Both the position numbers and the translations under genes were made by a program. This document shows, one piece after another, positions 11,872 through 27,110 of a stretch of 50,672 bases of DNA. Below the pieces are notes generated by a model, which was not told the origin of the DNA, ran no database searches, and was given only the letters and a program-made list of their open reading frames with translations. Position 1 is the first letter of the stretch. Each line of letters begins with the position of its first letter. Origin of the DNA: a virus; IMG/VR virus record IMGVR_UViG_3300033429_000007, positions 1 to 50,672 of that record. One strand, given 5' to 3'.

Positions 11872-11903
11872 TCTAGGTCGAATACGCTGACGGCGTGTTC
11901 TCC

Positions 11904-11948
11904 GGCTCTCGGTGGTTAGCTTCGGCGCTACCGGGGGCCACTTTTTTG
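11904..11948 (+). terminator. Intrinsic terminator closing the early operon
   Basis: GGCTCTCGGT at 11904-11913 pairs with ACCGGGGGCC at 11930-11939 (ten pairs, two of them G-U), leaving a 16-nt loop that can itself form a small AGC/GCT stem. The right arm is followed by AC and six T residues (11942-11947). Position 33 bases after the last early gene and before a promoter-like sequence fits a true terminator. Confidence 0.75.
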
Positions 11949-11958
11949 TTCACCTCGT

Positions 11959-11996: not shown

Positions 11997-12200
11997 ATGA
12001 ACATCACGAACATGGTCTATCTGGAAGACGAACGGCTGGCGCGTGAAGCGCGAGCGGAAGCAGCTCGCACGGGTGAGGAATCTGAATTCCATTGCCCCGA
12101 TTGCGGAGCGCTGGTGACCGTCCATCCGACTGACGATGAGAGCGTCGGCGTATGCCGCTGCTTGTGCGGGTCGTATTGGGAGGTCGAGATAGCGAGCTGA
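11997..12200 (+). CDS. Small zinc-ribbon protein, 67 aa
   Basis: The open frame begins at 11895 but that would run through the terminator, so ATG 11997 or 12012 is more likely. The product has an Ala/Glu/Arg-rich helix and then FHCPDCGALV and VCRCLCGSYW, which supply paired cysteines for a zinc ribbon. It opens the ParB/glycosyltransferase cassette. Its function is unknown; a nucleic-acid-binding role is possible. Confidence 0.55.
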   Translation: MNITNMVYLEDERLAREARAEAARTGEESEFHCPDCGALVTVHPTDDESVGVCRCLCGSYWEVEIAS

Positions 12201-12233
12201 CGATCTGGTATCGTGAAGCGGGAGGACACCAGA

Positions 12234-12653
12234 ATGTGGCGCAATCGAATCATCGGCAGCGGTGAAGCTCAGCCGTCCTCTCTCGCTGCTAACCCCTACG
12301 CCTATCGAATCCATCCACCCTACCAACACGAAGCCGTTCTAGCGGCCATCAGTGAGCTAGGATGGCTATCCCCCGTTGTTCTGAATGATCGCACCGGACG
12401 GCTCATCGATGGGCATCTCAGAACCATCGTCGCGTTGGGTCATGCACAGAGCGAGAAGATCCCCGTCGTTTACGTTGATCTCAGCGCAGACGAGGAGCGG
12501 CAAGCGCTGAACCTGATCGATCCCATCTCGGCGCTCGCTCGAATCGATCACATGAACATTTCACTCAACGGATCTATCGAGCGCTGCACCTGTCCGAGCT
12601 GCGGCTCTCATCACTTCAAAGCGAAGGAGGAAACCCATGACCAAGATGAGTGA
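12234..12653 (+). CDS. ParB-like domain protein with C-terminal zinc knuckle, 139 aa
   Basis: GGGAGGA at 12220-12226 supports ATG 12234 over the GTG at 12213. Residues about 15-105 follow the ParB N-terminal fold: NPYAYRIHPPYQHEAVLAAI, LGWLSPVVLNDRTGRLIDGH with the conserved GHLR, then VPVVYVDLSADEERQALNLI. The C-terminal 30 residues have CTCPSCGSHHF, a small zinc knuckle. Phage ParB-like domains of this type are often found next to DNA methylases and other DNA-modification enzymes (the Iyer/Aravind surveys), not in partition systems; no ParA is present. Role here is inferred: targeting or ATP/CTP-dependent support of the glycosyltransferases. Confidence 0.75.
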   Translation: MWRNRIIGSGEAQPSSLAANPYAYRIHPPYQHEAVLAAISELGWLSPVVLNDRTGRLIDGHLRTIVALGHAQSEKIPVVYVDLSADEERQALNLIDPISALARIDHMNISLNGSIERCTCPSCGSHHFKAKEETHDQDE

Positions 12654-13377
12654 TCGAGCGAAGCGGAAGCGGCAACCCGCCGTGCCGAAGAGAGCTACGG
12701 AGGTGATCGAGATCTCCAAGCTCACCGACCACCCTGATAATTATCGCGGCCACTCTCAGGATCAGCTCGACCACATCAAGTCGAGCATCCGAGCGAACGG
12801 CGTCTACCGAAACGTGATCATCGCGAAAGACAATGTGATCCTCGGCGGTCACGGCGTCGTGCAAGCAGCTCGACAGATGAAGCTCCGAAAGATCCAGGTC
12901 ATCCGGCTACCTTGGAAGTCAACCGATCCGCGCTCGCTCAAGGTGCTGACGGGTGACAACGAGATCTCGCGACTCGCTGGTGTCGATGATCGAGCGCTGA
13001 CGAATCTACTCAAGAAGATCAAGGAATCCGAAGGGGTTGATCTCATGGGTACAGGGTTCGACGAACAGATGCTCGCTGCTCTCGTCATGGTCACGCGAAC
13101 GTCAGACGAGATCGAGGATTTCGATGCGGCTGCGGAGTGGACGGGGATGCCGGAGCATGACCCCGGCAACAAGGCGTATCGATTGATTATTCAGTTCAGG
13201 AATGAAGATGACCGGCTCTCGTTTATGAAGCACGCCAACATCGATTCGGACAACCTGAAAGCATACACGCGGGGAGGTCAGCATTGGTCTACGTGGTGGC
13301 CGCCGAAAGAGCGCAACGATCTCGCGTCGGTGCGATTCGAAGATGGGGAAACGGATGCCGAAGAAACTCCGTCCTAG
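12637..13377 (+). CDS. ParB-like domain protein, 246 aa
   Basis: AAGGAGG at 12624-12630 lies six bases before ATG 12637, which overlaps the first ParB-like gene. Residues about 22-110 are ParB-like: EISKLTDHPDNYRGHSQDQL, IRANGVYRNVIIAKDNVILG, GHGVVQAARQMKLRKIQVIR, then the helical GDNEISRLAGVDDRALTNLL. The C-terminal domain (residues about 165-235) has EWTGMPEHDPGN and WSTWWPPKERND, elements I recall from ParB-like proteins beside phage DNA-modification genes. It differs clearly from the first ParB-like protein, so the two may form a heteromer. It runs into the first glycosyltransferase. Confidence 0.75.
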   Translation: MTKMSDRAKRKRQPAVPKRATEVIEISKLTDHPDNYRGHSQDQLDHIKSSIRANGVYRNVIIAKDNVILGGHGVVQAARQMKLRKIQVIRLPWKSTDPRSLKVLTGDNEISRLAGVDDRALTNLLKKIKESEGVDLMGTGFDEQMLAALVMVTRTSDEIEDFDAAAEWTGMPEHDPGNKAYRLIIQFRNEDDRLSFMKHANIDSDNLKAYTRGGQHWSTWWPPKERNDLASVRFEDGETDAEETPS

Positions 13378-14248
13378 ATATCCGATCTTCATCCCGTCGC
13401 TAGGGCGAGCGCAGAAATGCGTGAGTGCAGATATGTTCATCAAAGACGAGATCCCATTCAAGCTGGTCGTGCAACCCGATCAGGTGAAGGCGTATGCGGA
13501 GCGCTATGGAATCGAGAACATTCTCGTGCTGCCGGAAGATGGGAAGGGTCTGGTCTACGCTCGCAATTGGATCAAGGATTATTCCGTAGCGCAGGGTGAT
13601 GAGCGCCATTGGCAGTTCGATGATGACATCAAGTATTTCGACCGGCTGTATCGAGGGCATCGGATCCCATGCGCTTCGAACATCGCCGTCTCGATCATCG
13701 AGGATTTCGTCGACCGATACGAGAACGTAGCCATTGCATCTCCGAACAGCTCGTTCTTCATCGTGTCGAATGAGACGACGAATTCTCAGTGGCCACCCTT
13801 CTATCTGAACAGCCGGTGCTACACATGCTTCCTGATGATGAACTCGATACCGAATCGCTGGCGCTTCCGCTACAACGAAGACACAGACATGAGCTTGCAG
13901 GTTCTCGCTGACGGCTGGTGCACGATGCTGATCAATCACTTCCTGATCCACACGCCGGAGACGATGACCGATGAGGGTGGACAGACGGATATCTACGTAG
14001 CCGATGGTCGCTTGAAGATGGCGCGAGAGCTTGAGCGGGTGTGGCCGGGAGTGGTGAAGACGAGCAGACGATGGGGCAGACCGCAGCACGTTGTCGCTTC
14101 GGCTTGGAGGAAGTTCGACAACAAGCTCATCAAGAAGAAAGGCGTCAGCGTTGCACCGGGTGTCGACAACTACGGCATGGAACTCAAAACGAAGCAGCCC
14201 ATCGAATCGAAGCAGATCCAAAAGCTCATGGATGAGAGCCGCGAGTGA
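13355..14248 (+). CDS. TET/JBP-associated-type glycosyltransferase (TAGT), copy 1, 297 aa
   Basis: GGGGA at 13345-13349 favours ATG 13355 over 13343. The N-terminus reads YPIFIPSLGRAQKC, the start of the TAGT family as described by Iyer and colleagues. Then come GLVYARNWIKDY and WQFDDDIKYF with the metal-binding Asp triplet (89-91), and RYNEDTDMSLQVLADGWCTM, the acidic acceptor-side motif (Glu175-Asp178). TAGTs are GT-A-fold enzymes encoded by phages, often beside DNA-base oxidases, and are thought to add sugars to hydroxylated bases in DNA. No TET/JBP oxidase or hydroxymethylase is visible in this window, so the acceptor is unproven. Confidence 0.78.
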   Translation: MPKKLRPRYPIFIPSLGRAQKCVSADMFIKDEIPFKLVVQPDQVKAYAERYGIENILVLPEDGKGLVYARNWIKDYSVAQGDERHWQFDDDIKYFDRLYRGHRIPCASNIAVSIIEDFVDRYENVAIASPNSSFFIVSNETTNSQWPPFYLNSRCYTCFLMMNSIPNRWRFRYNEDTDMSLQVLADGWCTMLINHFLIHTPETMTDEGGQTDIYVADGRLKMARELERVWPGVVKTSRRWGRPQHVVASAWRKFDNKLIKKKGVSVAPGVDNYGMELKTKQPIESKQIQKLMDESRE

Positions 14249-15015
14249 TGACCTATCCCATCTACATTCCATCGCTCGGGAGAGCTGAACTCTGCACGAC
14301 GCCACAGACGCTGCTCGATGGTGGAGTTGAGAGCTTCACCATCTGCGTTGAAGCCGATGAAGCAGATGCGTACGCCGCTCGATTCGGTGAGGACAAGCTC
14401 GCCGTGATCGATCACTCGCGACAGGGGTTAGCTATGACGCGCTCGTGGATCAAGCGACACAGCGAGGGGCGGGGCGAGTCGTGGCATTGGCAGCTAGACG
14501 ATGACGTAATGTATTTCGCGATGAGAGCAGCGGGTGAGAAGAGTCGGCGCGTACCAGCTCTTGAAGCGATGACCTATGCGGAAGCGCTGACCGTGCGGTT
14601 CTCGAACCTTGCGGGTGTTTGTTTGAGCGCAATCAATTACCCGACGACGAAAGACTTCGCGATCAACCAGATGATCTACTCGCACAAGATCATCCGGAAC
14701 GGCACGCCGTTTTATTGGCGCTCGAATTGCGTAGACGACATTGACTTCTCGATCCAGCTGCTGGCTGGTGGCTGGTGCACGATAGCGGTGAAGCTCTACC
14801 GCGCCGCTACGCCATCGACGGAGAGCATGGCGGGTGGCTGCACGGAGATCGATTACCAGAACGATGAGAACCGATTGAAGAAAGTCAGAGGGTTGCAACA
14901 GAACTGGCCGTATCTCTTCGACATTCAACGCCGCGGTGGATTGCCGAGAGCAACGTCGGGTCCCGTGTGGAGGAAATTCAGAACACGCTTGGAGCTAGCC
15001 GATGGTCAGAGCTGA
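14248..15015 (+). CDS. TAGT-type glycosyltransferase, copy 2, 255 aa
   Basis: ATG 14248 shares a base with the preceding TGA (GTG 14245 is an alternative). The protein is a diverged paralogue of its neighbour: YPIYIPSLGRAELC at the N-terminus, GLAMTRSWIKRH, WQLDDDVMYF (Asp84-Asp86), and CVDDIDFSIQLLAGGWCTIA (Asp163-Asp166). The catalytic-type residues are kept, so it is probably active. It is about 40 residues shorter than copy 1 and lacks its C-terminal tail. Two intact but divergent copies side by side suggest two different acceptors, two different sugars, or successive additions. Confidence 0.75.
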   Translation: MTYPIYIPSLGRAELCTTPQTLLDGGVESFTICVEADEADAYAARFGEDKLAVIDHSRQGLAMTRSWIKRHSEGRGESWHWQLDDDVMYFAMRAAGEKSRRVPALEAMTYAEALTVRFSNLAGVCLSAINYPTTKDFAINQMIYSHKIIRNGTPFYWRSNCVDDIDFSIQLLAGGWCTIAVKLYRAATPSTESMAGGCTEIDYQNDENRLKKVRGLQQNWPYLFDIQRRGGLPRATSGPVWRKFRTRLELADGQS

Positions 15016-15871
15016 CGAGCTGCGCATCGTGCAATTCATCCACCCTGGGAAAGAGCAGACGAAGCATCGGAATGGCGTCTCACCGTGGGGTAGAACCTCG
15101 ACGCCGCACGGACGGAAGTTCATGCTCAACGAAGGGGGCTTCGTTCGCAACGGATCGAACGAGAAAGGGATGCTCTGCTTCTGGGGAGAATACGAAGGGC
15201 CCACGTTCGTTCGAGATCTCGAAAGGGTGCGAGGTCCGTGGTGGCCGCATACGGTTCACACGATTGCGTATCACGAACCGGCATCGCTCGAAGGGCTATG
15301 GGATACGGACCCGTTCGTCTTCGGTGATCGCTTCCTCTACAACGGGTGCCAGCAACATACGGCTTTCAATCGAGAGCCGCCGACCGAGACGTTGCTACGC
15401 CGACTCGCTCCCGGCAGCGTGATCCTCTTCGGCTCATCGCAGGGTGGCTACTTCATTCTCGATACGCTGCTCGTCGTGGGTAGCTTCATCGATTACCCGA
15501 ACGGCGATTACGCTGCGCTCGAGGGAAAGGTGCCGGCCGAATATTTCAACCTCGGTTTGCATCCGCAGAAATTGAGCGAGCCGACTGTGGATAGCTACCG
15601 CCTGTATCAGGGGGCGACATATAGCGAGCAGATCGGACAGATGTTTAGCTTCACGCCATGTCGAGCTGCCGATGAGGTGACGCCGGTATTTCTTCGACCG
15701 CGAATCGAGCTGGACGGAATCATCACGCAGAGCTTGACGCAGGGAAAGAAGTCAACGCTGATCCCGACGCTAGAAACGATGCACTCGCTATGGGTGAGGA
15801 TCTACGATCAGGTGTTCGCTCAAGGGCTAGCGGCAGCTCATCACATTGAGATGAAACCAAGGAGGATCTGA
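15002..15871 (+). CDS. Conserved protein of unknown function in glycosylation cassette, 289 aa
   Basis: ATG 15002 overlaps the end of TAGT copy 2 by 14 bases, so the genes are co-translated. Striking motifs are IVQFIHPGKEQ near the N-terminus, GRKFMLNEGGFV, LCFWGEYEGP (about residue 60), DTDPFVFGDRFLYNGCQQ (about 102-119), and GSVILFGSSQGGYFILDTLL (about 138-157). The pattern of clustered Phe/Gly/Asp motifs is that of an enzyme core, and I have an impression of a wider uncharacterised bacterial family with FWGEWE and DPFVFG motifs. I cannot name it. Location suggests it makes, transfers or edits the sugar or base used by the neighbouring glycosyltransferases. Confidence 0.6.
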   Translation: MVRADELRIVQFIHPGKEQTKHRNGVSPWGRTSTPHGRKFMLNEGGFVRNGSNEKGMLCFWGEYEGPTFVRDLERVRGPWWPHTVHTIAYHEPASLEGLWDTDPFVFGDRFLYNGCQQHTAFNREPPTETLLRRLAPGSVILFGSSQGGYFILDTLLVVGSFIDYPNGDYAALEGKVPAEYFNLGLHPQKLSEPTVDSYRLYQGATYSEQIGQMFSFTPCRAADEVTPVFLRPRIELDGIITQSLTQGKKSTLIPTLETMHSLWVRIYDQVFAQGLAAAHHIEMKPRRI

Positions 15872-15873
15872 TC

Positions 15874-16650
15874 ATGCAACCGTACGCAATCGTGGTGCCG
15901 TGGGTGACGATGGAAGAGATCGATGCGTTCCTCGAAGCGTGGGGAGCAGAGGATGGTGAACCGTGGCTCGTGTTACAGCATGACGAGCTCCACGAGGGTT
16001 GCGGAACTACGAAGAACAAAGGGGTTGCTCGCGCCGTGAATGAGTTCGAAGCAGATGTCGTCGTAATTCTCGACGGCGATTGCTATCCATACGCGGGGGG
16101 AGAGCAGTCGCTACCCGAGCTTGCGGAAGCTCACATCAAAGCGCTTCAACCGCAACCCGTGACGATGTTCGAAGAGGTCACGTCGCCGCCATCGCGCGGC
16201 ACACCATACGACGTTCGGGAGATCACGATGGAGGTCGCAGCGTCGATGGGATTCTGGATGGGGAATGGAGATCACTGCGCCGTGCGGCAGCTCGCTACGA
16301 AGAACGCGCAGATGAGTTTCGTACGCAAAGCAATTCACGGGCGTTACTTCCCGCTCTGTGGAATGAATCTCGCGTTCCGCGCTTGCTATTGGGACCCGTG
16401 GTGTCGCTTCATCGACATCCCGCGCTTCGACGATATCTGGATGGGGTGGCTCTGGCAGCGACACGCATACGATCTCGGCTACTGCTTCAATCTCGCGGGT
16501 CCGCTCGTGCAACACGTTCGGCAGAGCAACGTGTGGAACAACATCGTGACCGAATCTGGATATCTGGAATCGAACGAAACGCTATGGCGAGAGATCGCGA
16601 GCTGTCCGGACGATAGCTACGCAGCGTTACGAGCGTTGCTGCCATCATGA
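15874..16650 (+). CDS. GT75-like protein (reversibly glycosylated polypeptide / UDP-arabinopyranose mutase family), 258 aa
   Basis: AAGGAGG about eight bases upstream supports ATG 15874. The motifs follow plant RGP/UAM proteins: YAIVVPWVTMEEI at the N-terminus, VVVILDGDCYPY with the metal-binding Asp67-x-Asp69, FPLCGMNLAFRACYW (about 159-173), then RFDDIWMGW (184-192) and GPLVQHVRQSNVWNNI (about 209-224) near the C-terminus. In plants these proteins interconvert UDP-arabinopyranose and UDP-arabinofuranose and glycosylate themselves on an Arg; bacterial homologues exist. It is shorter than plant enzymes (about 350). In this cassette it may prepare a furanose sugar nucleotide or act as a third transferase. 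The family call is by eye. Confidence 0.68.
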   Translation: MQPYAIVVPWVTMEEIDAFLEAWGAEDGEPWLVLQHDELHEGCGTTKNKGVARAVNEFEADVVVILDGDCYPYAGGEQSLPELAEAHIKALQPQPVTMFEEVTSPPSRGTPYDVREITMEVAASMGFWMGNGDHCAVRQLATKNAQMSFVRKAIHGRYFPLCGMNLAFRACYWDPWCRFIDIPRFDDIWMGWLWQRHAYDLGYCFNLAGPLVQHVRQSNVWNNIVTESGYLESNETLWREIASCPDDSYAALRALLPS

Positions 16651-16695
16651 CCCTCTTGAATCAGCCGACACCTCATGGAAGGGGGGCGTAGCTCA

Positions 16696-17340
16696 GTGGC
16701 TCAGTGTACGGCTCAATCAAAACGGAGCGGGGTTCGATGCCGCCGTCACGCGATGAAGGGTCGCACCGTCTGTGCCAATCATGGCGGCAAGAGCTTGGTG
16801 GGTGTGGATTCACCGACGTTCAAGCACGGACGCTATTCGAAGCACCTTCCCGACTCGCTCTCGGTGCGCTACCAAGAAGCGCTGAACGATGCCAATCTGA
16901 TCTGCTTGGAAGACGAGATTGCGTTGATCGATGCACGGATCAAACGGCAGCTCGATCTCTTGGCAAAGGTGGGGATCAACGAAGCGATGTTCGGTAGATT
17001 GAAATTGTTGTACGAGCGCTTTCAGATGCACACGAACTCAGGGAAACACGGGTTAGCTATTCGAGCAATCCGCGAGCTGGGTGCGCTGCTCGATCAAGGG
17101 GCAGACGCTACGCTCGCGTGGACGGAGATCAACGAGCTGATGGAGACGCGACGCAAGATGGTGGAGACGGAACGGAAGCGATTGCTTGACGAAGATCAGG
17201 TGATCACCGTTGACCGGCTCATGGTGTTGGTGGCTGCGCTTGTTGACATCATCCGACGCAACGTCGCGAGTAAGGATGAACGTGCCGCAGTCTCGGACGA
17301 GATCCGATTGCTGGTCGAGCGCAATCCTTCGGCTAGCTGA
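16696..17340 (+). CDS. terS: Terminase small subunit, 214 aa
   Basis: I prefer GTG 16696, nine bases after GGAAGGGGGG, giving MAQCTAQSKRSGVRCRRHAM; the in-frame ATG 16675 adds only seven residues and contains the ribosome site itself. The N-terminus has a zinc-type Cys/His set (QCTAQ, RCRRHAMKGRTVCANHGG) followed by SPTFKHGRYSKHLP, characteristic of small terminases that begin with a CxxxxxxxxxC-H-C-H knuckle. The rest is helical (oligomerising region). The gene lies directly before the large subunit. Small terminases recognise the packaging site and feed DNA to the motor. Confidence 0.8.
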   Translation: MAQCTAQSKRSGVRCRRHAMKGRTVCANHGGKSLVGVDSPTFKHGRYSKHLPDSLSVRYQEALNDANLICLEDEIALIDARIKRQLDLLAKVGINEAMFGRLKLLYERFQMHTNSGKHGLAIRAIRELGALLDQGADATLAWTEINELMETRRKMVETERKRLLDEDQVITVDRLMVLVAALVDIIRRNVASKDERAAVSDEIRLLVERNPSAS

Positions 17341-17362
17341 GGGTGTCACCCCTGAGAACGGG

Positions 17363-18775
17363 GTGAAGCTCTGGACGCCGAACCCGGGTCCACAGACGGC
17401 GGCGTATGAATCGCTCGCGGACGATCTCTTCTACGGCGGCGCGGCAGGTGGAGGGAAGAGCGATCTGTTGCTCGGCTTGGGCGCGGAAGCTCATCACCGA
17501 TCCGTCATCTTCCGTCGCGAGTTCCCTGAGCTGACGGAGCTGATGGAGCGAGCCGAAGAGATGGCAGGGGGCTATGGGAGATTGAAGCGCGGCAGCCCCG
17601 GTCGGCTCTCTTTGCAGAGCGGACGGCAGATCACCTTCGGATCGTGTCCACACAATCAGAACAAGAAGCGCTGGCAGGGTCGGCCGCATGATCTCAAGTG
17701 CTTTGATGAGGTGACGCAATTCACGCGAGAGATCTTCGTGTATCTCAAGACGTGGGAGCGCTCCGCGATGCCGGGTCAACGGAAGCGAACGGTGTGTACG
17801 GGCAACCCGCCGACCGATCTCGAGGGAGCATGGGTAATCGATTATTGGGCACCGTGGATCGATCCGAATCACGAGAACCCTGCCGAGCCGGGAGAGCTGC
17901 GCTGGTTCGTCACAACGAAAGACGGGAAGACGGACACCGAGGTGCCGGATGGTGAGCCGATCTTGATGGAAGGGGAGATGGTCTATCCGAGATCGCGGAC
18001 GTTCATTCCAGCTCTGCTCAGCGATAACCCATATCTATCAGCGGACACCGATTACCTCAAGGTGATTCAAGCGACAGCGGAGCCGATGAGATCGCAACTG
18101 CTCTACGGGAAATTCGATGCGGTCACGGATGATAGCCAATGGCAAGTCGTGCCGAGCGATTGGTTCGACGCAGCCGTCTATCGATGGGAGATGAATGCGG
18201 AAGCGATCGGGAAGATGACAGCGCTCGGTGTTGATGTCGCTCGGGGCGGCGGTGATGCGACGACGCTCGCGCCGAAGCACGGCGATTGGTTCGCTGAGAT
18301 CGAAGAGATACCGGGGAAGCAGACGAAGACGGGCCGTGAGGTGGCCGGAGCGGTGGTTGAGAGGACGAGTAGAGTGCAGGGCGAGGTACGCATCGGGATC
18401 GATGTCATCGGCGTAGGAAGCTCGCCGTATGATCTGCTCGTCGATGCGGGTGCGACCGTCGATGGAATCAATTTCGGTGCGGGTGCAGGGGATACGACAG
18501 ATCGCAGCGGGAAGTACAAGATGCTCAACGTTCGAGCCGCAGCGTATTGGGGATTCCGTGAAGCGCTCGACCCTGAGTATTCGCGGATCATGTTGCCACC
18601 CGACAAAGCTCTGCGGCGCGAGATGCTAGCGGCGAAGTGGAAACTCCGCGGCGGCAAGATTCAGATCGAAGCGAAAGAAGAAGTGAAAGCTCGGCTCGGG
18701 CGCTCGCCGGATAACGCCGACGCCGTCGTGCTTGCACATTACGCTGATCGAAACGCGACTCTAGAATTCTGGTAA
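17363..18775 (+). CDS. terL: Terminase large subunit, 470 aa
   Basis: The frame is open from 17210, but the sensible start is GTG 17363 (MKLWTPNPGPQ) or possibly ATG 17276 inside terS. The ATPase half has FYGGAAGGGKSDLLLG (Walker A, residues 24-38), LKCFDEVTQF (Walker B, Asp116-Glu117) and a TGNPP coupling motif. The nuclease half has ALGVDVARGGGDAT (Asp292), RIGIDVIGVGSSPYD (Asp348) and SPDNADAVVLAHY (Asp450/Asp453), the three acidic sites of the RNase H-like headful nuclease. The length is normal. It drives DNA packaging and cuts concatemers. Confidence 0.92.
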   Translation: MKLWTPNPGPQTAAYESLADDLFYGGAAGGGKSDLLLGLGAEAHHRSVIFRREFPELTELMERAEEMAGGYGRLKRGSPGRLSLQSGRQITFGSCPHNQNKKRWQGRPHDLKCFDEVTQFTREIFVYLKTWERSAMPGQRKRTVCTGNPPTDLEGAWVIDYWAPWIDPNHENPAEPGELRWFVTTKDGKTDTEVPDGEPILMEGEMVYPRSRTFIPALLSDNPYLSADTDYLKVIQATAEPMRSQLLYGKFDAVTDDSQWQVVPSDWFDAAVYRWEMNAEAIGKMTALGVDVARGGGDATTLAPKHGDWFAEIEEIPGKQTKTGREVAGAVVERTSRVQGEVRIGIDVIGVGSSPYDLLVDAGATVDGINFGAGAGDTTDRSGKYKMLNVRAAAYWGFREALDPEYSRIMLPPDKALRREMLAAKWKLRGGKIQIEAKEEVKARLGRSPDNADAVVLAHYADRNATLEFW

Positions 18776-19437: not shown

Positions 19438-20967
19438 ATGGCGACCACGGTACTCGGTAACACCCCGACGACGATTGACGATGCAGAGTCGGCAACCGGC
19501 TGGACGCTGCTCACGACGCTCGACACCGATCTGGTCAAAGAGAACGCCAACTCAGTGTCTGGCACCATGCGTACCGCCTTGGCGATGGGCTACTACGACA
19601 TCATCACGGACGGTGGGTCGGCGCTCAACCTTGCCAGCCAGCACGTGCGGGTCTGGATCAATTTCTCGACCGTTGCGTTTCTCGACATCGAGGCCAACGG
19701 CGGCATGGAATTCTACATGTACGACGGTTCGACCACTGAGTATTTCGTAGCGTTCGGTAGCGACACCTACTCTGGTGGCTGGAAGAACTTCGTCGTCGAT
19801 GCTGATCTGTTCACCACACTCACCCTGTCCGCGATCCAACGTTGGGGGTTTCGATTCAACCGCACGGCAGCACCCGCGAACAAGATCAACACTTGGGTCG
19901 ATTACATAAGATTTGGCGACGGCTACTACGCGACTGGTGGGACCAGCGGAGACGAGATCACGCTGTCTTCGATGTTCGCTCTGGACTTCGCTGGAGGCTA
20001 CGGCATTCTCGATCTGGTCGAGGGTGTCTACTTCGGATACGGCGAGCTACAGATCGGCAACGGCAGCACCACCACATGGTGGGAGATGCTTGGTGAGGTG
20101 TTGGTCTTCACTGATCAGCCGATCGCGACGGGGTTGTATACCCTGCGAGGTCAGGGAAGCGGGTGCCGGGTTGTGATCGCTGACTCGGTGATTCAAGCTG
20201 CTGGCACGACAGACACGACTCGCTTCATCCTCGACATGGATGACGCTGATCTGGTGTCGTTCTCGATGACCGGGTCGTTCCTCAAGCGGAGCGGTGAGTG
20301 TCGATTCAAGTCGGGGCAGATTGTGACCGGCAACACCTTCAACGACTGCGGGCAGATCTTCGCCAATGGTGCAGATCTCAGCGGCTCGAAGGTGGCGGGC
20401 TATGAGGGAACCACGGACACGGGAGCGCTGAGCTGGACACCAGCGACCGATCCAAATGGTGAGCTTGACGACATGAGCTTCACGAAGGGATCGGCAGCCA
20501 CCCATGCTATCGAGTTCGGGATAGCTTCACCCACGACGATGACGCTGACCGGCATCGCGTTCAGCGGATACAACGCAGCGGACGGACAGACGGATTCGGC
20601 ATTGCTGATTCGAAGAACGACCGGCACGGTAGACATCGCGCTCGTCGGCTGCACCGGCACGATCAAGTACAAATCGCTCGGGGCCACCGTCACCCTGACC
20701 GCTTCGAAGAGTGCGACGTTCACGCCGATTGAGAACGGCTCAGCTTTCACCATCACAAAAGATAGCGACAACTCGATTCTGCTAGATGTTCCATCGACGA
20801 CGGGTGGCGAGGTCGTCTACTCATACGACGGTGCGCTGGACGGGACAGCGACGACCGTTCACATCATCATCGTTGGCAAGGAACCCATTGATTTCGCGTG
20901 GGTGATTGCCGAGGGCACCGTCCCGATAACCCAAGGCGTAGACCGGAACTATTCGAACCCGACGTAG
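19438..20967 (+). CDS. Beta-rich appendage/fibre-like structural protein, 509 aa
   Basis: ATG 19438 lies one base after the preceding stop. The protein is rich in Gly/Thr/Ser/Asp and short strands. The middle part (about residues 190-330) has repeating short strands with turns (LYTLRGQGSGCRVVIADSVI, CRFKSGQIVTGNTFNDCGQI), as in right-handed beta-helix fibre proteins. The last residues are VDRNYSNPT, an ending shared with the next gene. Its role is inferred to be a virion appendage; no enzyme motif is seen. Placement between terminase and portal is unusual for a fibre. Confidence 0.6.
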   Translation: MATTVLGNTPTTIDDAESATGWTLLTTLDTDLVKENANSVSGTMRTALAMGYYDIITDGGSALNLASQHVRVWINFSTVAFLDIEANGGMEFYMYDGSTTEYFVAFGSDTYSGGWKNFVVDADLFTTLTLSAIQRWGFRFNRTAAPANKINTWVDYIRFGDGYYATGGTSGDEITLSSMFALDFAGGYGILDLVEGVYFGYGELQIGNGSTTTWWEMLGEVLVFTDQPIATGLYTLRGQGSGCRVVIADSVIQAAGTTDTTRFILDMDDADLVSFSMTGSFLKRSGECRFKSGQIVTGNTFNDCGQIFANGADLSGSKVAGYEGTTDTGALSWTPATDPNGELDDMSFTKGSAATHAIEFGIASPTTMTLTGIAFSGYNAADGQTDSALLIRRTTGTVDIALVGCTGTIKYKSLGATVTLTASKSATFTPIENGSAFTITKDSDNSILLDVPSTTGGEVVYSYDGALDGTATTVHIIIVGKEPIDFAWVIAEGTVPITQGVDRNYSNPT

Positions 20968-20975
20968 GAGGCATC

Positions 20976-22568
20976 ATGGCAAAGATCACAGACCCAGATC
21001 AGCTAAACCTAAACACAGAGATCTACATCGACACGGCGGGACCGAAGACGGTTCAATTGGTGGCGGCTGGAAACCTATCGGACGCATCGCCGGGTGCAAC
21101 ATCTGGCGTGACCGGACAGGCGGTCTACAGCAAGTGCGTCGAGCTATGGGAATCGACGCTGAACTTCCGTCGCCACTCATTCCCGATCAAAATGTATACC
21201 CCCGGCGAGGGGGAGATGATCAACACTTGGATCTGGGACGACGCGACGACCCGCGAGTTGCTCCGCGACTTCGGCTGGATCGAGGTCGATGGCTCGTGGT
21301 GGATGGGCGTCTTTCAGCTCGGTGATGTCCCTGCCGATGCGGATCAGCTCTACAACGAGAACACCGGAGATCCAGACGGCACCGTCGTCGATTTCGTTTA
21401 CACGGGTGAGCTGAACGAAGCGGTGCAGATCAAGGGCACGGGTGGCACGCCAGACGACACTGGACACCTCAGCGTCTTCTATCGAACGCGCCCGAATTTC
21501 TACGATTATTACGAGGTGGTGGCGGGTCTCCAGATCGCATCGCTCGAACCGAAAGCGTATTCGATTCCTCTCTCGTCAACGGCTGACCCGAACATCACCG
21601 TATCGGATGCGACCATCGACGGCGCTACCGAGCCGTGGCAGTCGATGACGCTCGACTATCTGACGGGCGAGTATGGCTATCAGGGTGCGGCGGGTGGAGC
21701 GGAGACGTGGGCCATCTCACAGGTCTACGTCGCTGGTGATGCCATCGCTGATTCGACGGGCCGCTACTTCCGGGTGACGGTCGGCGGCACGAGCGCGGGT
21801 AACGATTCTGATCTCGCTGGTGGATCGGATACCGGCGTGAGCTACGAGGTGCATCCCGGCGAGTATCTGATCGGCTCGACCTACTATCTGTTCTCTCGAA
21901 TCATCGACGGCGCATCTTGCACTCTGTCTGAGGGCTATCACTGGGGCGCACGGCAAGAGCGGCAGGTCGGAGATATCAACGACGACATCAATGGCGACGC
22001 CTTCGGCACGGTCTACGGACAGCTCGCCGTTCACCTCTACGCAGATAAGGGCGCGGGATTCGACGGCACCGTCTTGAAGCTCGCGGAGGGTGTGTTCCTC
22101 TACGATCCGTCAGCATCCGAAGCGAACAACATTCTGTTCTTCCCGCACTCGCTCGACGGCACCTATCCGAATAGCGGCAACGGGGTCCAATACCCCTTCA
22201 CCGTGAATCTGAATTTCCTCTTCACTTCGAACCTCGTTGGTGGCCAATGTACGGTCTTCTTTGAGAACGATGACGCCGGTGACAACAACGGCTACGACTT
22301 CGACACCGACAACGCAATCGTCGTTGAAGATGATGTGCCGACCGATATGGATTTCGTGATCAGCTCAGCCGACATGGACAAGACATTCGACTTCGACGTG
22401 AACGTGCAGCGCGGCACCGGATCGGATGGGGAAGATGCCCCGTTGAAGGTGGTGGCGATCTACGCCGGTGGAGCTGAGCCGATTGTGGTCGATGCTCTCG
22501 TGACGCGAGTCGATAACGTCGCCATCCGGATCAACGCTTCGGACGACCGTAATTACAGCAATCCCTAA
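20976..22568 (+). CDS. Large structural protein, 530 aa
   Basis: TAGGAGG upstream supports ATG 20976; the frame is open from 20898 without good signals. The N-terminal domain contains VYSKCVELWESTLNFRRHSFPI, which resembles IWSDLIEDWEATLALRRFTFP of the gene at 22930, so the two share an N-terminal module. The rest is beta-rich with many Gly/Asp. The C-terminus ends SDDRNYSNP, as in its upstream neighbour. I read it as a virion appendage or decoration protein. No catalytic motif is visible. Confidence 0.6.
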   Translation: MAKITDPDQLNLNTEIYIDTAGPKTVQLVAAGNLSDASPGATSGVTGQAVYSKCVELWESTLNFRRHSFPIKMYTPGEGEMINTWIWDDATTRELLRDFGWIEVDGSWWMGVFQLGDVPADADQLYNENTGDPDGTVVDFVYTGELNEAVQIKGTGGTPDDTGHLSVFYRTRPNFYDYYEVVAGLQIASLEPKAYSIPLSSTADPNITVSDATIDGATEPWQSMTLDYLTGEYGYQGAAGGAETWAISQVYVAGDAIADSTGRYFRVTVGGTSAGNDSDLAGGSDTGVSYEVHPGEYLIGSTYYLFSRIIDGASCTLSEGYHWGARQERQVGDINDDINGDAFGTVYGQLAVHLYADKGAGFDGTVLKLAEGVFLYDPSASEANNILFFPHSLDGTYPNSGNGVQYPFTVNLNFLFTSNLVGGQCTVFFENDDAGDNNGYDFDTDNAIVVEDDVPTDMDFVISSADMDKTFDFDVNVQRGTGSDGEDAPLKVVAIYAGGAEPIVVDALVTRVDNVAIRINASDDRNYSNP

Positions 22569-23720: not shown

Positions 23721-24714
23721 CATTATCCGCAAGCGAGGCGATACCCGCCGTATCCAAAAGACGGTGAGGGAGAACGGCGTCGCCATCGATATCAGCGGCT
23801 GGACGTTCACGCTGACGATCAATCGAGAAGAGGATCCGAGCGATGCGAGTGAAGAGGTGGCGCAGCTCATCGGCGTGATCGTCGTCGCTGGTGACGGCAC
23901 GGTGAAGTTCACGCCGACGTTGACGGACGTAGATTGGGTCGGCACCTATTTCTACGACATCGAAGCTATCGATGCGGACGGCGGCGTCTCGACTCTCGAT
24001 AAGGGGCGATGGGTCAACACGCAAGACATCACGAAGTCAGACGAGGAGTTCATCTGGACGCCGAGCTTGACCCCGAATGACGGCGACCCGGTGGTGGTGG
24101 ATGCAACCGAGTTCTGGAGATTAACAACCTTTAACGCGGGCGACGCTTTGACCTACGAGACGAGAGACACGAGGCGGGTGATCCGGTGGGACATGGACGT
24201 GAACGAGAACGCGTGGGCCGGTCGCGACATCATGGCGCTTGGTCCCGAGTCGCCGCGACCGTCGAACCTTTGGTATCCGGTCGGGTGGGAGTTCAAGGCC
24301 ACCGCATACGTCGCCGAATCGCGGGTCGGACTCCTTCTGGTGACGCTCGGTTATTCGGACTACGTGGACAACGTCGTGAACAATATCGGCGGGATGAGCG
24401 CCGGGTGGGGTGCATTCGTCGAGGGTGCTTCCGAAGACAACAACGGCCCGACCGATGACGCGAGTTGGGTGAACCCGGACTGGTATGTGTTCGGCTTGCG
24501 AGTCGATGCGGACGGCGTGGTGTGGGGGATTCTACATCCGGAGACGGAGGTGGGAGATTACGGCACCCGAGACTGGATGAAGATCATGCCCGATGGGTGG
24601 ACATGGAACCCAGCGGTGCCGTTCTCGGTCCAGTTCGGTGGGCGACCTGACGACCCGGCTGATCCCGCTTGGGTCATCGACCTCTGGAAATATGAGTGGC
24701 GGAGGTTGTCATGA
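23713..24714 (+). CDS. BppU-like appendage protein, 333 aa
   Basis: GGAGGTGGG at 23702-23710 supports GTG 23713 over ATG 23689. The N-terminal domain (about residues 1-110) opens SDIIRKRGDTRRIQKTVREN and has IDISGWTFTLTINREEDPSD, the pattern of the BppU-type N-terminal domain of phage baseplate or fibre-attachment proteins. The remainder (EFWRLTTFNAGDALTYETRD, GRDIMALGPESPRPSNLWYP) is strand-rich and may be a binding domain. It ends four bases into the portal gene. Confidence 0.6.
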   Translation: MSDIIRKRGDTRRIQKTVRENGVAIDISGWTFTLTINREEDPSDASEEVAQLIGVIVVAGDGTVKFTPTLTDVDWVGTYFYDIEAIDADGGVSTLDKGRWVNTQDITKSDEEFIWTPSLTPNDGDPVVVDATEFWRLTTFNAGDALTYETRDTRRVIRWDMDVNENAWAGRDIMALGPESPRPSNLWYPVGWEFKATAYVAESRVGLLLVTLGYSDYVDNVVNNIGGMSAGWGAFVEGASEDNNGPTDDASWVNPDWYVFGLRVDADGVVWGILHPETEVGDYGTRDWMKIMPDGWTWNPAVPFSVQFGGRPDDPADPAWVIDLWKYEWRRLS

Positions 24715-27110
24715 GCGGTCGACTGGGATTGATCAGCCGCTTCCGAATGGCGACGGCATCGAAGCTGCTCGGGCAGATGAGTGAAGAGGAAGCGGGGATG
24801 CTGGCGCGGATCGTTCCGGGTGGCTATAAAACGGCTCCGGCTCGAGGGACGCAACAGATGCTCGCTGCGTATTCGAAGTCGCCGTGGGTGCGAGCGGTCG
24901 TCGGGAAGATCTCCGATGCTATCGGCTCGACGAAGTGGGCGCTGTTCTCTGTGAAGAACCCGAGCGGCAAGCACGTCAAGATGCCCGAGCTACAGAGCAA
25001 GGGGATCAAGCTCAAAGATTATTCGCTCGGGAACGTTGATCTGCCGGATGGATATGAGGTCACGCCGGTTCTCGATCATCCATTCCTTCGCTTGCTGAAT
25101 ACGGCGAACCCGCTCTTCCCCGGCTCGGTCGGAAGATCACAGACGAACATCTCAATGGAGCTGACCGGCGAAGCTCATTGGATCCTCGATCCAGAGTGGG
25201 CGGGGGGCCGCGCTGTGCCGGAGCGCTTCTGGTTGATCCCATCGACATGGGTGCGAGCGATGCCCTACGAGGGTGAGCCGTATTGGGATATCAAAACGCC
25301 GTCGTGGGAAGGGAAGCTACCAACCCCTGCCGTCTTCCGATTCGCTACGCCTGACCCGGTGAATCCCTATGGCAGAGGATCAGCTCACATGCGAGCGTTC
25401 GGGGATGAGATCGATACGGATGAGTACGCCGCTCAATATACGAAGAATTGGTTTCTGAATAACGCTCGTCCAGATCTCTTGATCACGAGCGAGGGGCTGA
25501 GCAAGCCGGACACCGAGCGCTTGGAGCTGAGCTGGTTGCAACAGACGCAGAGCTTCCGGCGAGCGCACAAACCTTTCTTCCTTCCGAAGAAGGTAGACAT
25601 CACGACGCTCTCACCGAAATTCAGCGATATGGAGATGCGGCCGCTGCGTTCTTGGGAGCGAGATATTTTGGTGCACGGCACGGGGATGCCGCCAGAAATT
25701 CTCGGGATCATCGAGAACTCGAATCGAGCCACCATCGAGGCAGCCGATTACCTGATGGCGAAATATGTGCTGGTGCCGCGACTCGAATTGCAACGGACGT
25801 TCATGCAATTTCTGTTGCTGCCGATCTACGATGATCGATTGATTCTCGGATACGAATCTCCGGTGCAAGAAGATCGCGAGTATCAGCTCTCCGTGATGAA
25901 AGAAAACCCACCCGCGTTCACCGTCGCAGATTGGAAGCGACAGGCGGGGATCGAGACGACCGATGCGGATGAGGTTTATCTGCACCCCTTCAACCTCAAG
26001 ATCGTTGATTCTCTCGAACCCACACCCGACCCTGCGCTGCTCGCTAGCCGAGCCGCGAGGATCGCGTCTAAGCTCACGGAAGGTAGCGATGATCGAGATA
26101 CATTGCCCTGCGGCTGCGGCACGCCTGAGTGCACGTACCAGCCGCCTGACATATACGGGAGAGCGATAGCGGCGGTCGATACCGTCAGAGGGTTGATCTC
26201 TTCCGGCGAATCGAGCAAAGCGCTACCGGACGGCTTCACGAAGCAGGTAGGTGGACCGGACACCACGCGGCTCGCTCTGAATCTCTCGGGGCAGATGCAA
26301 AAGGAGCTCGTCGAGGCGTGGGAAGCTCTCGCGAACAAGATCGATTATCGAGCGATGATGGATGCGTTCAAGAAGGGAGATCTCGACGCAGCGATGCAAG
26401 TGCTTTACGAAGCAGATCTCGCGGCAGAACTTGAGATCGCGCGGCAGACGCTACGCGAAGCAATCGTCGTGGTGGGTGAAGCGAGCGCGGAAGAGCTGGG
26501 TGCGTATCTCGGTGAATCGATTGCGTTCGATCTCAGCAACCCGGAGAGCATCGCGTTCCTCTCAGAATTCGGCGGCGAGATGGTGACGGACGTGAGCGAT
26601 GAAACCTACGCCGCTCTGAAACGGCTGCTCACCCAAGCATACGATGAAGGGCTGACGGCTGCGGAAACGGCGAAGCTCATCGGAGAAGATCCAGGCGTCG
26701 GGCTGACGGCGCGAGATATCGAGCAGCGGCGACGGCTGATCGAGGGGATGAGAGAGTCGGGTCTATCCGAAGTAGAGATCGAAGAATGGTCGAAGAAATG
26801 GACGAAGGGAAAGATCAAGTATCGAGCGCAGGTGATCGCAGATAACGAGCTGGTCGATGCCGGTAATCAAGGGCAGCGACGGCTATGGGATCAAGCGCAG
26901 AACGATGGGCTGATTCCGAAAGATACGAAGAAGCAATGGATCGTCACACCGGACGAGAAATTGTGTCAGCTCTGCGGACCGATGGGTGATCCGCAGCCGG
27001 GCGTTTCGATTGTCGGGATCAATGAGTTCTACCAGACGCCAGCGGGTGCGGTTTATATCCCATCCGAGATCCATATCCGTTGTCGATGTAGCGAACGAAT
27101 CTTGGTGTGA
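24711..27110 (+). CDS. Portal protein fused to MuF-type minor head protein, 799 aa
   Basis: GGAGG before ATG 24711 and the ATGA overlap fix the start. Residues about 1-440 are an HK97-type portal: MLAAYSKSPWVRAVVGKISD, ITSEGLSKPDTERLELSWLQ, GTGMPPEILGIIENSNRATIEA and YLMAKYVLVPRLELQRTFMQ are typical strings. A linker with CGCGTPEC follows. The C-terminal third (DARDIEQ region, YRAQVIADNELVDAGNQGQR, KLCQLCGPM, HIRCRCSERILV with Cys791/793) is the MuF minor head protein, including its zinc cysteines. The portal is the DNA gate; MuF proteins help head assembly or enter the host. Natural portal-MuF fusions are known in some phages. Confidence 0.85.
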   Translation: MSGRLGLISRFRMATASKLLGQMSEEEAGMLARIVPGGYKTAPARGTQQMLAAYSKSPWVRAVVGKISDAIGSTKWALFSVKNPSGKHVKMPELQSKGIKLKDYSLGNVDLPDGYEVTPVLDHPFLRLLNTANPLFPGSVGRSQTNISMELTGEAHWILDPEWAGGRAVPERFWLIPSTWVRAMPYEGEPYWDIKTPSWEGKLPTPAVFRFATPDPVNPYGRGSAHMRAFGDEIDTDEYAAQYTKNWFLNNARPDLLITSEGLSKPDTERLELSWLQQTQSFRRAHKPFFLPKKVDITTLSPKFSDMEMRPLRSWERDILVHGTGMPPEILGIIENSNRATIEAADYLMAKYVLVPRLELQRTFMQFLLLPIYDDRLILGYESPVQEDREYQLSVMKENPPAFTVADWKRQAGIETTDADEVYLHPFNLKIVDSLEPTPDPALLASRAARIASKLTEGSDDRDTLPCGCGTPECTYQPPDIYGRAIAAVDTVRGLISSGESSKALPDGFTKQVGGPDTTRLALNLSGQMQKELVEAWEALANKIDYRAMMDAFKKGDLDAAMQVLYEADLAAELEIARQTLREAIVVVGEASAEELGAYLGESIAFDLSNPESIAFLSEFGGEMVTDVSDETYAALKRLLTQAYDEGLTAAETAKLIGEDPGVGLTARDIEQRRRLIEGMRESGLSEVEIEEWSKKWTKGKIKYRAQVIADNELVDAGNQGQRRLWDQAQNDGLIPKDTKKQWIVTPDEKLCQLCGPMGDPQPGVSIVGINEFYQTPAGAVYIPSEIHIRCRCSERILV

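Follow-up and report, generated by a model that had tools for sequence, protein, structure and literature searches.

A GMPEF-TAGT partnership and a predicted GT75-like mutase in a candidate DNA-glycosylation cassette of a tailed phage

The window analyzed here is the entire 50,672-nt (50.7 kb) IMG/VR virus record IMGVR_UViG_3300033429_000007, which belongs to a tailed phage with recognizable genes for a replication initiator, a RuvC-like nuclease, terminase, portal, protease, capsid and tape-measure proteins. Its plus strand carries a candidate DNA-glycosylation cassette that encodes, in order, ParB1, a ParB/Srx-like protein (12213-12653); ParB2, in which a ParB-like domain is followed by a C-terminal domain that we denote GMPEF (12637-13377); TAGT1, a glycosyltransferase (GT) of the GT-A type (13343-14248); TAGT2, a divergent second TAGT (14245-15015); a protein without a recognized function, possibly an accessory reader of the PUA superfamily (15002-15871); and a GT75-like protein, a predicted nucleoside diphosphate (NDP)-pyranose mutase of the UAM/RGP/MtdL family (15874-16650). 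The successive genes from ParB1 to the GT75-like one are separated by -17, -35, -4, -14 and +2 nt, a further 24 nt lead to a candidate small terminase gene, and AAGGAGG stands upstream of both ParB2 and the GT75-like gene. An initial annotation of this DNA had described such a block of co-translated genes between an intrinsic terminator and the small terminase, and the coordinates and spacings bear out this layout, with every gene that it named found in place. The family labels that it assigned also hold, now on much firmer ground, above all for the mutase; what it missed are the GMPEF partner domain, the possible PUA-like fold of the fifth protein and the sugar enzymes encoded by relatives.

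Both transferases are intact and match PF20691 far above its curated cut-off of 27.5 bits (TAGT1, 119 bits, 3.2e-34; TAGT2, 95 bits, 9.2e-27), and both match phrog_842 (3e-46 for TAGT1). The DDD and DxD acidic motifs of TAGT1 (D93/D94 and D180/D182) are kept in at least 95% of the 80 TAGTs compared. TAGT2 retains the acidic motifs as well, including DDD, and the tree places it with the second TAGTs of loci L004 and L026. By family, TAGT1 and TAGT2 would be DNA-glycosylating enzymes.

The two ParB-like proteins, also predicted in the initial annotation, match the same PHROG families with very different strength (phrog_620, 1.4e-12, and phrog_498, 6.8e-13, for ParB1; 2e-27 and 1e-26, respectively, for ParB2), whereas the curated PF02195 ParB_N profile is not reached by either (14.3 bits against a cut-off of 26.3 for ParB2, and no match for ParB1). 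ParB1 has a GHLR box and a Cys-rich tail, and its translation perhaps starts at the ATG at 12234, behind GGAGG. The N-terminal part of ParB2 matches phrog_498, the ParB part of ParB-methyltransferase fusions, and a PADLOC type II methyltransferase model; apart from a ParB-methyltransferase match, PADLOC made no defense assignment within the cassette. The C-box arginine (GERR/GHxR) retained in ParB1 is absent from all 128 ParB2-like proteins in which this box is readable. On these two counts, the missing residue and the shortfall in the curated profile, we reject the reading of ParB2 as an ordinary partition ParB, a CTP-dependent clamp.

The distinctive feature of ParB2 is its C-terminal domain of about 70 residues (aa ~165-235), with the signature W..EW.GMPEF...VHF...ED...F..L......WYP, which has no Pfam match in the scan of ParB2 and at most one weak match among PHROGs. 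Across 73 relatives of TAGT1, the TAGT gene usually shares 3-10 nt with the gene directly upstream, which encodes ParB2 in close relatives and a protein of ~77-93 residues in distant ones. The short genes were considered as mini-ParBs, but alignment shows that they correspond to the C-terminal domain of ParB2. Thus, GMPEF occurs in three forms: fused to a ParB-like domain, standalone, and N-terminal to TAGT within a single protein, the last form being found in the cultivated phages phiAS5, PTm1, POP12 and Kuja and, more weakly, in 1.076.O and 1.124.O. When ParB2 was used as bait, 77 of the 80 loci had a TAGT gene no more than 1.5 kb downstream; two of the others are cut by a contig edge and one has the TAGT at 1.7 kb, so that a TAGT is present in all 78 loci not truncated by a contig end. 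With standalone GMPEF as bait, TAGT was present in 79 of 79 loci, whether fused, adjacent or one methyltransferase gene apart. GMPEF is, accordingly, an obligate partner of TAGT and, as far as we searched, a previously undescribed one; we found no report of a ParB-TAGT or GMPEF partnership, although the pairing was possibly described in the 2013 Iyer survey or the 2021 phage TET paper. A recurrent methyltransferase family is encoded between or beside GMPEF/ParB2 and TAGT (L227:2479-3285, L229:3215-4021, L247:3203-4051 and L254:3182-4042, as well as L035, L077 and L086); these enzymes may act on the base or on the sugar.

The likeness of the last cassette protein to plant UDP-arabinopyranose mutases, already noted in the initial annotation, is supported by profile, residues and fold. 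The protein matches PF03214 (RGP) with 28.3 bits (1.3e-6), above the cut-off of 23.8. We aligned a profile of 14 phage homologues to MtdL, for which the DXD aspartates, the autoglycosylated R159, the general base D260 and the metal ligand H287 have been characterized (PMC9937993). MtdL D109/D111, R159 and D195 correspond to phage D67/D69, R108 and D133, and R257, D260, H287 and R289 to R184, D187, H214 and R216, all invariant in the 14 phage proteins; S228 is replaced by G163, as in plants, and D87 could not be placed in the alignment. The structural model (pLDDT 82) matches rice OsUAM2 with Z 20.1 over 243 aa and MtdL with Z 18.4, compared with 12.6 for the next GT-A enzymes. Judging from the conserved residues and the fold, the mappable part of the mutase site is complete. 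The identification as a GT75 family member is convincing on the strength of these alignments and the model, and the protein is predicted to convert an NDP-pyranose to an NDP-furanose. The phage protein is shorter than MtdL (258 vs 376 aa), mainly owing to a much reduced C-terminal region, and is encoded in DNA-related operons; the fold, the metal motif, the autoglycosylated arginine and the general base are common to the phage proteins, MtdL and the plant UAM/RGP. We found no report of a phage UDP-arabinopyranose mutase or other GT75 mutase in the literature.

The association of this gene with the transferases recurs in other phages. In each of the eight loci whose upstream flank is available, the GT75 gene immediately follows ParB2-TAGT, and it is concentrated in one clade of TAGT1 (support 100/99), with 11 of 13 loci inside the clade and 1 of 64 outside, counts that are only indicative statistically given that the loci are related by descent. 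This near-confinement to a single clade suggests a furanose as the donor sugar of the clade that includes the TAGT1 of the window. In some relatives, the position of GT75 is occupied by NDP-sugar epimerases (PF01370, 3e-39, in L019; a 7-member epimerase-like cluster). A GT75-like gene is also present in an uncultured 595-kb phage (LR756511; L097:8001-8561), where no TAGT was detected beside it. Directly 3' of TAGT/GT75, a sulfotransferase is encoded in L025, L026, L027 (PF03567) and L034, which suggests sulfated sugars.

For the fifth protein (15002-15871), in which the initial annotation had seen no recognizable function, searches of Pfam, PHROGs, NCBIfam and the sequences of PDB indeed gave no match. 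Its AlphaFold2 model (pLDDT 66) yields PDB matches that are weak (Z <= 5.5) and nearly all to the PUA superfamily: ASCH, EVE (THYN1 and the restriction enzyme VcaM4I), the N-terminal domain of McrB, and YTH; ASCH is also on top in the comparison with viral models. The protein is, then, possibly a reader of modified bases related to the PUA, EVE and ASCH domains. Its relatives are found in L003, L093, L094 and L095, including cellular genomes. In an Actinomycetota metagenome-assembled genome (L094:1022-7507), the homologue neighbors a member of the UDG family as well as a large protein that matches PADLOC PRTase models, an arrangement that is possibly involved in defense against modified phage DNA. 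A Synechocystis plasmid (L095:7995-8900) carries a broken-up homologue, with ~30% identity in three pieces.

Several lines of evidence connect these transferases to DNA. In one relative, a single open reading frame of 1060 residues (L051:7036-10215) combines TAGT with UDG, a 3'-5' exonuclease and DNA polymerase A, and in L092, GMPEF, TAGT and UDG are fused. In L071, L085, L090, L056 and L059, the module lies amid genes that, by eye, read as replicative helicase, clamp, clamp loader and RecA, and RepO-like proteins, assigned in the same way, are also among the genes around such modules. ParB2 carries a ParB-like domain that elsewhere is fused to DNA methyltransferases. In Nonlabens phage P12024L (NC_018272), a Tet_JBP gene is directly upstream of TAGT, and TAGT chemistry is known on DNA, being tied in the literature to the gentiobiosylation of T2/T6 DNA (PMC13216743). 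The fusions, the modules within replication clusters, the ParB-like partner and the possible modified-base reader fold are the reasons why we favor DNA as the target, so that phage DNA appears to be the likely substrate of the cassette.

The best explanation for the combined observations, in our estimate with a probability of about 0.6, is post-replicative DNA glycosylation. Under this scenario, the GT75 protein would convert a host NDP-pyranose, for example, UDP-L-arabinopyranose, to the NDP-furanose, and TAGT1 would transfer the furanose onto bases of the phage DNA, with the ParB-like and GMPEF domains of ParB2 bringing TAGT1 to the DNA or activating it there. TAGT2 would probably lengthen or vary the sugar, in the manner of the T6 TAGT acting on glucosyl-hydroxymethylcytosine (glucosyl-hmC). 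Recognition of the modified base may fall to the PUA-like protein, and ParB1 may serve as an alternative subunit for handling DNA. The DNA modified in this way would be shielded from host nucleases before packaging. The initial annotation had likewise proposed that the GT75-like protein makes a furanose that the TAGTs place on DNA or another target; family membership and genomic context lend partial support to this proposal, with DNA as the probable target.

The chief difficulty of the DNA glycosylation scenario is the acceptor. To our knowledge, the sugars of phage DNA require a hydroxyl supplied by a thymidylate synthase (TS)-type enzyme or by TET. Profile searches found no TS-type hydroxymethylase (PF00303) in the window or in 74 relatives, no Tet_JBP (PF12851) in the window or in 49 relatives, and no C5-methylase in the window, in agreement with the initial annotation, which had noted the absence of all three; Pfam and PHROG scans of nearly all predicted open reading frames of the window revealed no other base-modifying enzyme. 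Many of the records of the relatives are fragments, with ~18 exceeding 40 kb, but the same searches found neither TS nor TET in those of 40-334 kb either. Both searches find the enzymes in control phages: the TET of P12024L was recovered at 3e-29, and PF00303 was found in POP12, Kuja, henriette, phiAS5 and PTm1, and not in 1.076.O and 1.124.O. A C5-methylase was considered as a general maker of the acceptor and rejected, being present in only 6 of 50 records. These negative results weaken the idea, raised in the initial annotation, of an acceptor base produced by a gene beyond the window. Given that neither TS nor TET was found, either there is a hydroxylase that we fail to recognize or TAGT and its partner use a different acceptor.

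The first of these options, a variant nested within the DNA glycosylation scenario, such that the respective confidences need not add up to one, holds that TAGT1 employs ordinary chemistry on a base that owes its hydroxyl either to the host or to a phage enzyme that is unlinked and has so far escaped discovery. We consider it a serious possibility, if somewhat short of an even chance. A hydroxyl acceptor is required for the TAGT-type products that have been characterized, most of the records are fragments, and 87% of the PHROG families have no known function; the radical SAM/SPASM proteins encoded in five relatives (L016, L019, L036, L085 and L090), as well as the inserted methyltransferases described above, could, in principle, contribute. 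On the other hand, conservation of the neighborhood does not extend to a third gene beyond GMPEF/ParB2 and TAGT, and the long records yielded neither TS nor TET in searches that do find these enzymes in the control phages. The second option is that GMPEF/ParB-TAGT is a self-contained system of DNA glycosylation, independent of any known base-hydroxylating enzyme, which would attack a canonical position, such as an exocyclic amine, or one activated by the partner, the sugar in the clade of the window being the furanose made by GT75; we hold this only tentatively and rate it as rather unlikely, although its chance is a real one. As for the radical SAM/SPASM proteins themselves, they are encoded within or beside the TAGT cassette (L016:10824-11831, L019:7752-8927 and L036:9025-10014, the last one matching PF04055 and PF13186, as well as L085 and L090).

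Apart from the acceptor enzyme, which went unrecognized in the window and the relatives and so leaves the known acceptor missing, several other observations weigh against DNA glycosylation: the fusion with DNA polymerase A comes from a single contig, the PUA-like match of the fifth protein is weak, the substrate of GT75 is not readable from its sequence, and the sulfotransferase, methyltransferase, epimerase and radical SAM genes of the relatives would equally suit glycans of proteins or surfaces. The missing acceptor enzyme and these accessory genes, along with the location of the cassette next to the terminase and head genes, are compatible with the alternative that GT75 and the TAGTs build a furanose glycan on a virion or host protein or on a host surface molecule, which other phages would further sulfate or methylate. 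Such a target seems unlikely to us, considering that TAGT shares a single chain with UDG and DNA polymerase A, that the modules are lodged inside replication gene clusters, that the obligate partner is itself joined to a ParB-like, DNA-associated domain, that a TET gene neighbors TAGT in P12024L, and that DNA is a known substrate of TAGT chemistry. More improbable still is that the GT75-like protein serves not as a mutase but as a glycosyltransferase, or as a carrier that passes a sugar to TAGT via its self-glycosylated arginine, because, although GT75 members autoglycosylate this conserved residue and some plant members have no mutase activity (PMC9937993), every mapped catalytic residue of the mutases is retained and epimerases occupy the same site in relatives.

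Viewed against the systems already known, the cassette combines familiar parts in an unfamiliar way. With the TAGT of T2/T6, the beta-glucosyl-HMC-alpha-glucosyltransferase that catalyzes gentiobiosylation of phage DNA bases (PMC13216743), TAGT1 and TAGT2 share PF20691, phrog_842 and the GT-A type. However, in the T-even phages, 5-hydroxymethyldeoxycytidine (hmdC) is produced via a TS-type enzyme, none of which was found in the window, and is first glucosylated by GT-B enzymes, whereas here TAGT is paired with ParB-GMPEF and the GT75 mutase. The P12024L operon is similar in that TAGT belongs to a small DNA-modification operon, but the Tet_JBP oxygenase directly upstream of TAGT in that phage has no counterpart in the cassette. 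As defined by the acceptor enzymes, therefore, the cassette is neither TET-associated nor a T-even pathway. The Mosigviruses RB69 and NP, with their 5-ara-dC DNA, provide a parallel in the form of a pentose on phage DNA with sugar-nucleotide genes nearby; they use a TS-family 5-hodCMP synthase together with an isomerase/epimerase/kinase set, and the accessible part of that report mentions no GT75 mutase (PMC13390438). Finally, ParB2 resembles the ParB-methyltransferase fusions of phrog_498, to which, along with phrog_620, its N-terminal domain is closest, but has GMPEF in place of the methyltransferase and a replaced C-box arginine.

Phage DNA sugars decide which host defenses work. Many phages with solitary TAGTs of unassigned role were listed in 2026 (PMC13216743), and that account gives 288 of 753 GT-bearing phage genomes as having a TAGT without an alpha- or beta-GT, proposes that these are novel transferases, and, in its accessible part, describes no ParB/GMPEF partner, GT75 mutase or absence of TS and TET. 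For such solitary TAGTs, the present analysis supplies an obligate partner domain, a candidate pathway for a furanose donor and evidence for DNA as the substrate even though the known acceptor-base enzymes went unfound. The Shewanella/Vibrio phages 1.076.O and 1.124.O are deposited examples with the GMPEF-TAGT fusion, in which neither TS nor TET was found. Should the sugar be transferred without a hydroxyl prepared beforehand, the reaction would be new for DNA and possibly useful for DNA labeling.

Upstream of the cassette on the plus strand, the intrinsic terminator proposed in the initial annotation (11904-11948), a hairpin with a T-rich tail that we place at 11904-11947, is upheld by folding of the region 11898-11952 (-25.3 kcal/mol, z -5.15), after which the sequence continues with CUUUUUUG; a simple terminator scan detected only the inner stem, not above chance, but the full hairpin folds well. 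It is followed by a gene for a small Cys-rich, zinc-ribbon-like protein of 67 aa (11997-12200), with only sub-threshold zinc-ribbon matches in Pfam and PHROGs, which may lie outside the cassette proper. Families c23 and c29, which appeared beside TAGT in the first gene calls, were taken to be wrong-frame open reading frames, and a composition-aware caller was used instead. Downstream come the candidate small terminase (16675-17340; a weak terminase match, phrog_10899), with homologues in the same post-cassette position in L006, L019, L036 and L039, and the large terminase (17210-18775; phrog_979, 6e-36). Farther on, an 804-aa protein (24696-27110) that matches portal and head-morphogenesis families is apparently a portal fusion. 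Two large open reading frames without a PHROG match (19438-22568; 509 and 556 aa) separate the large terminase from the portal, and the first of them has a relative in L036.

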